This document shows, piece by piece, positions 33,634 to 35,206 of a DNA stretch of 64,000 bases. This DNA is from Thermococcus camini. Its GTDB lineage: Archaea; Methanobacteriota_B; Thermococci; Thermococcales; Thermococcaceae. The translations under genes and the position numbers were made by a program. Under the pieces are notes generated by a model, which worked only from the letters and a program-made list of their open reading frames with translations, did not search any database and was not told the origin of the DNA. Each line of letters starts with the position of its first letter. The first letter of the stretch is position 1. Location: NCBI RefSeq assembly GCF_904067545.1, contig NZ_LR881183.1, positions 872,277 to 936,276 of the forward strand, written 5' to 3'.

Positions 33634-34536
33634 CTACTCCCCGAAAATCCTCTCCACGAACCACTTCTCGTCGAAGGGCCTTAGGTCGTCGTAGCCCTGT
33701 CCAACGCCAACGAAGAGTATCGGCGCGCCAATCGCGTGGCTTATGCTCAAGGCCGCACCGCCCCTTGCGTCCGCGTCGAGTTTCGTGAGGATTACCCCGT
33801 CTATCTTTACGGCCTCATTGAACTGCTTTGCCTGCTCCACCACCGAGTTGCCTGCTAAGCTGTCGCCGACGAATATCACCAGATCGGGATTGGTTACGCG
33901 CGCTATCTTCTTCATCTCGTCCATCAGGTTCCTGTTCAGCTCGTTCCTTCCGGCGGTGTCTATGAGGACGACGTCAATGTTTCTGGCCTTGGCGTGCTGG
34001 ATTGCATCGTAAGCAACAGCCGCCGGGTCGGCGCCGTAGGAGTGTTTTATGACCTTAACGCCAACCCTCTTCGCGTGCTCCTCAACCTGCTCTATCGCTC
34101 CAGCCCTGAAGGTGTCGCTCGCGGCTATGACGACTCCGAGGCCGTTCTTCTTGAGCCAGTGGGCGAGCTTGGCTATGGTCGTCGTCTTTCCGGAGCCGTT
34201 GAAGCCCACGAAGGCTATGACGAAGGGCTTCTCCCCCTTTGACCTGATAAGCTCGATGAGGTCTATCCTTTTCTCCGGCGTGAGAACTTCCAGAACGGCC
34301 TCTCTAACGGCGTTTTCAACGATGGCCTTCTTGTTGGTTCCTATTTTTACCTTCTGGCCGACGAGTTTCTCCTTTATCCTCTCTTTGAGCTCCTCAACGG
34401 TTTCGAGGGCGACGTCCGCCTCGAGAAGCTCTATCTCCAGATCCCAGAGGGCGTTTTCCACGTCCTTCTCACTTATTTCAGTCTGTGAAACCCTTTCCAC
34501 GAATGAGCCTAACTTCTCCTTGAGCTTTCCCAGCAT
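33634..34536 (-). CDS. ftsY: Signal recognition particle receptor FtsY
   Basis: A 300-residue SRP-family GTPase: N domain (helical, 1-100), then G domain with P-loop [10 protein letters not shown] (111-120), [28 protein letters not shown] and [12 protein letters not shown]. It docks SRP-ribosome complexes at the membrane. The short N-terminus without a long acidic A domain is normal for Thermococcales. ATG 34536 follows AGGTGGTAAAG. The A+T-rich ATTATATATGCC just upstream is its likely TATA. Confidence 0.95.
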
Positions 34537-34586
34537 CTTTACCACCTGATGAGCGAGAGACTTAGGCATATATAATTATTATGAAT

Positions 34587-34646
34587 GCCCTCGGCGATAG
34601 CTGGTGTCATCACACCTCAGACCCGAAGCCACTCGTCATCGGGCGG
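34587..34646 (-). ncRNA. C/D box guide sRNA, dual guide, predicted 23S rRNA targets
   Basis: On the minus strand from 34644: GCCC, box C-like CCGATGA (34642-34636, the two elements overlap), a 15-nt guide, box D' CTGA (34620-34617), GGT, perfect box C' GTGATGA (34613-34607), a 12-nt guide CACCAGCTATCG, box D variant CCGA (34594-34591), then GGGC, which pairs with GCCC as the terminal stem. The D guide is complementary to GATAGCTGGT, and the D' guide (its ten bases next to the box) to ACCCGAAGCC. As I remember 23S rRNA, both lie in domain II less than 100 nt apart, the first exactly conserved and the second nearly. A TATA box sits 25 bases upstream. Boxes C and D depart slightly from consensus. 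Confidence 0.75.
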
Positions 34647-34662
34647 GAGTGTCTCCTCCCGG

Positions 34663-34676
34663 GGGTTTATAAACCA
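34663..34676 (-). promoter_or_regulatory. TATA box of the C/D box sRNA
   Basis: GGTTTATAAACC, about 25 bases upstream of the predicted RNA 5' end near 34646 on the minus strand. Archaeal spacing is correct for an independent sRNA transcript. Confidence 0.6.
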
Positions 34677-34687
34677 CACGTGCCCGT

Positions 34688-35137
34688 TCAGTACCTCCTG
34701 ACGTAGGTCTTGCTCTCAACTATTCGCCCGCTCTCCAGACGCATCACATCGACCCTTTCAAAGCCGACGGTTTCCCTCTTGTATGCGATTAGGTAGTCAA
34801 TGAAGTCCTTGATTCTGTAGCGCGTTATCGAATCCTTCACGTACTTGTGTTCGTACAGCAGAATGAGCTTGTCCCTGTGCTCTTCCAGCCACTCCCGGAG
34901 CTTTTCCCTCTCTGCCTTCGAGCGCGAGAGGGGGTTGATTATCAGGTACACATCGAAGTCGTCGCTCTCAAACGGTGGGCCTATGTAGATGTCACCGTTC
35001 ACCTGGAATGGAATGTATTCGGCAAGCACGCGCCTGCCGTCCCTGCTCCAGGCATTGATGTATATTCTCGCAAGTCTCTTCCCGTCTCCCGTTATTAAAA
35101 CGGCTCCCGAGTCCAGTTCGGCTATTTTCTTCAGCAT
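34688..35137 (-). CDS. Conserved-looking soluble protein, unknown
   Basis: A 149-residue protein with an N-terminal beta-rich part (GAVLITGDGKRLARIYINAW, then RRVLAEYIPFQVNGDIYIG) and a charged helical C-terminus. No catalytic motif is recognised. ATG 35137 is chosen over the upstream GTG/ATG pair at 35146-35141, which lies in the GTGATG ribosome binding site. It is divergent from the BmpA gene, with TATA-like elements for each direction in the gap. Confidence 0.68.
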   Translation of the reverse strand: MLKKIAELDSGAVLITGDGKRLARIYINAWSRDGRRVLAEYIPFQVNGDIYIGPPFESDDFDVYLIINPLSRSKAEREKLREWLEEHRDKLILLYEHKYVKDSITRYRIKDFIDYLIAYKRETVGFERVDVMRLESGRIVESKTYVRRY

Positions 35138-35206
35138 GGTCATCACAAAAAACTTTTATCAGGTGGTTAAAATTCTTTCTCAAATTTTCGGTTCTTTTAT
35201 GACCGC

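Follow-up and report, generated by a model that had tools for sequence, protein, structure and literature searches.

The window analysed here is a 64,000-nt stretch (positions 872277-936276) of the one-contig, 2.02-Mb genome of Thermococcus camini, in which one 23S rRNA gene was found (contig positions 1705463-1708491, minus strand). Comparison of the window with Rfam placed a member of the C/D-box sRNA family sR28 (RF01136) on the minus strand at window positions 34589..34643, aligned without gaps to the entire model (1-55 of 55), with a score of 56.8 bits as against a gathering score of 39 and an E-value of 5.9e-12. The other match above cut-off is the H/ACA sRNA HgcE (Pab105; RF00060, 64.6 bits) at positions 247-372, likewise on the minus strand.

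Read along the minus strand, the locus comprises a TATA box, TTTATAAA (34666..34673), as the predicted sRNA promoter, the 5′ strand of a terminal stem, GCCC (34641..34644), box C, ATGACGA (34633..34639, as placed by the Rfam alignment), a 12-nt D′ guide (34621..34632), box D′, CTGA (34617..34620), box C′, GTGATGA (34607..34613), a 12-nt D guide (34595..34606), box D, CCGA (34591..34594), and the 3′ strand of the stem, GGGC (34587..34590). The two stem strands, identified from the sequence and from comparison of loci within g1 (one of the numbered genera, g1-g6, into which the 94 Thermococcaceae genomes compared were grouped), can form four base pairs. The boxes ATGACGA/CCGA and GTGATGA/CTGA have the bases that a k-turn and a k-loop require, the C at position 3n of box D being matched by a C at 3b of box C, and the length of both guides falls within the 10-12 nt that PMC3608112 gives as the rule for the distance between the C/D and C′/D′ motifs of archaeal dual-guide sRNAs. 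A preliminary description had already read the minus strand as a dual-guide C/D-box sRNA with these boxes and a 4-bp terminal stem, and the Rfam match bears this out: a real guide RNA and both of its rRNA targets had been named from the letters alone, without tools.

Downstream on the same strand lies ftsY, encoding the SRP receptor GTPase (33634..34569; Pfam SRP54 and SRP54_N), whose true start is likely the ATG at 34535, and upstream lies an ORF for a 152-aa protein lacking a Pfam match (34688..35146, also minus); both are conserved neighbours of the sRNA. The stretch from the TATA box to the predicted sR28 start contains an inverted repeat, CGGGAG...CTCCCG (34645-34662), and a similar one is found only in some relatives. 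We conclude that the locus is a C/D-box sRNA of an already known family, of which it is an ordinary, conserved member; that it constitutes a stand-alone sR28 gene, with a predicted role in guiding methylation of two bases of 23S rRNA, we regard as highly probable.

Pairing of the two guides with 23S rRNA

Alignment of the guides to the genome's own 23S rRNA had been proposed in the preliminary description, with the lack of any run of at least nine pairs as the outcome that would speak against it. The D guide forms 11 contiguous Watson-Crick pairs with 23S positions 920-930, and the D′ guide 10 contiguous Watson-Crick pairs with positions 788-797 plus a G-U pair at 798; against the antisense strand of the same gene, used as a control, the longest runs were 7 and 7. 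The N+5 rule selects A924 for the D guide and G792 for the D′ guide, both of which are paired, and which an alignment of 23S sequences equates with E. coli A804 and G674. These are the bases named beforehand (the second A of GATA and the G of ACCCG), and the stated fit to E. coli segments also proved accurate, GATAGCTGGT being exact and ACCCGAAGCC differing by one base. The claim that the targets lie less than 100 nt apart was wrong, as A924 and G792 are separated by 132 nt (130 by E. coli numbering).

A single guide match is, on its own, weak evidence. When the 12-nt guides were shuffled 200,000 times, a run of at least 10 in the own 23S arose in 0.8% of cases for the D guide and 1.4% for the D′ guide, and 11 of the 1153 CTGA/CCGA boxes in the window are accompanied by a guide match of 10 or more to 23S, two of these being the boxes of sR28 itself. 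Such frequencies, and the departure of both box C and box D from consensus, might be taken to indicate a chance look-alike or a decayed pseudogene. We assign this a negligible probability: the element scores 56.8 bits and is present in 82 genomes, its guides are conserved above its spacer and flanks, and its box departures match each other in what is the commonest form of the family. Two matches within one well-built element, the Rfam E-value and the conservation in 82 genomes together argue that sR28 is not the product of chance, in keeping with the earlier judgement that two such guides would be improbable by coincidence.

Both target segments were followed across the family. A 251-nt 23S segment was located in 62 of the 94 Thermococcaceae genomes and, after exclusion of one weak match (G063), 61 were read, of which 59 are from genomes that also carry sR28. 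In all 59, standard base pairing at the 788 site extends over positions 3-11 of the D′ guide, and at the 920 site over positions 2-11 of the D guide. Opposite D′ guide position 8, the rRNA has G in all 36 g1 genomes and, among the other 23, A in 22 and G in one; in the guide itself, the g1 genomes have either C (24 genomes) or T (12), and only T is found in the 23 from other genera. C is thus found in 24 of the 37 genomes with an rRNA G and in none of the 22 with an rRNA A, a distribution following the rRNA base such that guide base 8 always pairs. For specialists, the target pair of sR28, with its D′ site backed by guide-target covariation, should be of use.

The D′ guide has a second candidate site. 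In a scan of duplex energies, which takes no account of the N+5 rule, the best site in the own 23S was 703-713 (-23.2 kcal/mol, versus -20.6 kcal/mol at the 788 site), where guide positions 2-12 form 10 Watson-Crick pairs and one G-U pair and G706 is the N+5 base. G792 may, in consequence of this pairing potential, not be the sole D′ target, and on energy alone G706 would even be the main one. However, 20 of the 59 genomes have a mismatch at the 703 site between guide positions 3 and 11 (at position 11 in 12 g1 genomes and at position 6 in eight of g3), none has one there at the 788 site, and guide base 8 tracks the A or G of the 788 site, whereas the 703 site stays G in the genera read. We therefore consider G706 improbable as the main target and rejected 703-713 in that capacity, since it is not conserved, while keeping it as a possible second target: the conserved D′ target is the 788 site, with G706 at most an additional one.

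In our reading of the Rfam archaeal LSU structure, C789 pairs with G929, C790 with G928 and G792 with C926, while 920-925 lie opposite 793-795 in an internal loop. These pairs place the two sR28 targets on opposite strands of one 23S helix. We take yeast 25S Gm805 (snR39b) to be the counterpart of G792; a literature search found no paper on this correspondence. A literature search for sR28 in Pyrococcus returned one paper, which uses a different numbering, and both targets may have been listed before (e.g. in snoRNAdb).

Conservation, loss and genomic context of sR28

RF01136 matches with E-values up to 0.001 were obtained in 89 of the 94 Thermococcaceae genomes, and in 78 of these the match exceeds the cut-off. 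Counting four further copies that fall just below it and have all boxes and guides, sR28 itself is present in 82 genomes; of the remaining 12, seven have weak matches only (~20-23 bits) and five have none. Weaker second matches to the family also occur, and the seven that were read all carry other guides. In all 82 copies the guides are 12 and 12 nt long, and the D′-C′ gap is 3 nt in 79 and 4 nt in three, the latter being left out of the gapless set for their spacing. Over the 79 gapless copies, mean information amounts to 1.90 bits in the D guide (invariant at 11 of its 12 positions) and 1.58 bits in the D′ guide, as compared with 0.59 bits in the D′-C′ spacer, 0.34 bits upstream and 0.50 bits downstream, so that spacer and flanks are not conserved.

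Given that 12 of the 94 genomes have no recognisable sR28, and that six of these are at least 90% complete, the sRNA is dispensable. In two of them (G014 and G034, one contig each and 99% complete), ftsY and the 152-aa ORF adjoin each other with no C/D element in between, and their 23S rRNA retains both target segments. These are natural losses of sR28 between unchanged flanking genes, and the two complete genomes offer themselves as natural controls for the role of the predicted methylations. By exact pattern, the D guide was found nowhere else in either genome apart from 23S itself. A search of the 12 sR28-less genomes for a replacement D-site guide gave as its sole exact match the 23S of G034, in antisense, and none of the looser matches resembled a C/D element. 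Candidate guides to the D′ site were about as numerous in these genomes as the matches of a backwards control. In a further genome without sR28 (G093), CRISPR repeats (CRISPR-DR6, four matches; L208 1180-1411) adjoin ftsY.

Outside the family, no sR28 was found in the 21 non-Thermococcaceae genomes of a 115-genome search of the phylum. The pattern of the C′-D half occurs in 24 records among genome contigs, 15 of them Thermococcales by title and nine others (seven bacterial, one Sigynarchaeota, one Pyrodictium); these nine have no sR28 match, and no full C/D element was visible in the flanks inspected. In the Pyrodictium contig (L167 2813-2834) the C′-D half resembles that of sR28, the other half not being clear. 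The genome of Sulfolobus acidocaldarius, included as a control and far outside the Thermococcaceae, matches RF01136 above cut-off.

With some loci clipped by contig ends or by flanks of 1-1.5 kb, the 152-aa ORF lies upstream of sR28 in 51 of 51 g1 genomes with the sRNA, and ftsY lies downstream in 47 of the 51, in 12 of 13 in g4 and in three of seven in g5. In g3, neither gene is found beside sR28 in any of nine genomes, and both guides are retained. The presence of a TATA-like box goes along with the spacing to the upstream ORF: where the ORF ends at least 30 nt before box C, one is located 27-38 nt upstream of box C in 24 of 26 g1 loci (by the rule used, two have none), as compared with one of nine loci with a gap of 0-29 nt and none of the 16 overlapping loci. 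In these 16 of 51 (e.g. G018, G021), the stop codon of the ORF falls in box C (9), C′ (6) or D′ (1). The TATA box at 34673-34666, which the preliminary description had put at the right distance, occupies the same place as in the 24 wide-gap loci. The sR28 gene hence looks like a stand-alone unit in the T. camini window, and in some relatives the sRNA is probably processed from mRNA, which fits the range of arrangements of archaeal C/D sRNA genes reviewed in PMC7994747.

The recurrent position of sR28 just upstream of ftsY, together with the caution in PMC4247193 that cis elements may be among predicted snoRNAs, could also suggest a cis-acting, L7Ae-binding k-turn that regulates ftsY or the upstream gene and is no guide RNA. 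Yet the conserved letters are those of the rRNA-matching guides, which the g3 copies keep in the company of neither neighbour, and box D is separated from ftsY by a stretch with a TATA-like sequence, ATTATATAT, from which the ftsY transcript should start beyond sR28. We hold such a cis regulator to be very improbable, and read the element as a guide RNA.

Covariation within the k-turn

Among the 82 copies of sR28, the fifth position of box C and the second of box D (3b and 3n of the k-turn) combine as C/C in 45, T/T in 19 and A/T in 13, with C/T (4) and C/A (1) being rarer; T. camini, with C and C, has the commonest form. A wider set of C/D sRNAs, sR28 included, was collected from 12 genomes by a strict pattern that omits box C forms such as TGAAGA. 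In this set TGATGA is accompanied by CTGA in 124 of 125 cases and by CCGA in one, and TGACGA (n = 44) by CCGA in 25, CTGA in 16 and CGGA in three (Fisher's p = 1.5e-19, with orthologues repeated across genomes and cases hence not independent), while a backwards control pattern had no match in the 12 genomes. Mapped onto an ftsY tree of 61 genomes, five and six separate changes at the two positions reduce to seven joint ones. The two positions covary, and in T. camini the unusual CCGA of box D goes with a likewise unusual box C, ATGACGA; the joint change at one k-turn pair is a reason to keep CCGA boxes in annotation. At the C′/D′ motif, the 3b.3n combinations among 169 sRNAs were T.T (97), G.C (22), G.T (14), A.G (10), A.T (8), C.C (7), T.C (7), A.A (2) and C.T (2). 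A limited literature search found no description of 3b:3n covariation, and we claim no priority.

According to PMC5689011, the 3b:3n pair of archaeal box C/D motifs is strongly U:U and three elements set ion-induced folding, and PMC4382518 states that C at 3b without G at 3n favours folding in metal ions alone. In the T. camini k-turn, C:G at -1b:-1n and C at 3b both favour ion folding and G:C at 4b:4n opposes it, making the prediction for sR28 a mixed one. We offer only as speculation, with the odds clearly against it, that 3b:3n in Thermococcaceae does not remain U.U but switches jointly (U.U, C.C, A-U, G-C, G.U, A.G, and likewise at C′/D′), which would compensate box departures, and that a C.C sR28 could pre-fold without L7Ae, alter the order of RNP assembly and act as a self-folding 23S clamp as well as a methylation guide.

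Predicted function and comparison with known systems

Archaeal C/D sRNAs as a class bind L7Ae, Nop5 and fibrillarin. From the sequence, we infer that a small RNA is made at the sR28 locus and that its two target bases are methylated. The TATA promoter would direct transcription from a point near 34643, ~25 nt further downstream, where the 5′ strand of the stem lies; the RNA would fold into a C/D k-turn and a C′/D′ k-loop and be expected to assemble with the three proteins, its two 12-nt guides would pair with the two 23S segments, and ribose methylation by fibrillarin would fall on A924 through the D guide and on G792 through the D′ guide. PMC7758197 names GEO GSE153501 as the deposit of RiboMeth-seq data for Pyrococcus furiosus.

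The closest known system is the Rfam family itself: RF01136 sR28 has the same guides, boxes and spacing over its full length, the T. camini boxes ATGACGA and CCGA each having one C for a U of the consensus (AUGAUGA, CUGA). In Thermococcus kodakarensis, 54 C/D sRNAs were verified as transcripts (PMC4247193), and 21 of 24 circular C/D sRNAs can form a terminal stem of at least three pairs (PMC9014305), to which the four pairs of T. camini sR28 compare. The 'sR28' of PMC9014305 carries the alias Tko-sR26, so that its read numbers are not transferable to an sR28 of the RF01136 type.

With one target on each strand of the 23S helix, simultaneous binding may hold these strands close to each other during 23S folding. 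The main role of sR28 could then be that of a chaperone whose guides clamp the helix, with methylation secondary or absent at one site, as the same geometry has been proposed to serve chaperoning in Nanoarchaeum equitans sR15 and sR17 (PMC4644070). We consider this conceivable but unlikely, given that the spacing and the N+5 pairing are as in working methylation guides and that G014 and G034 manage without sR28; the two roles are not mutually exclusive, and methylation guidance remains our preferred reading. The N. equitans targets are in 16S rRNA, on strands hundreds of nucleotides apart, and those of sR28 in 23S rRNA, 132 nt apart. What the two organisms have in common, with no shared descent claimed, is an sRNA with one guide fitting each strand of a single rRNA helix.
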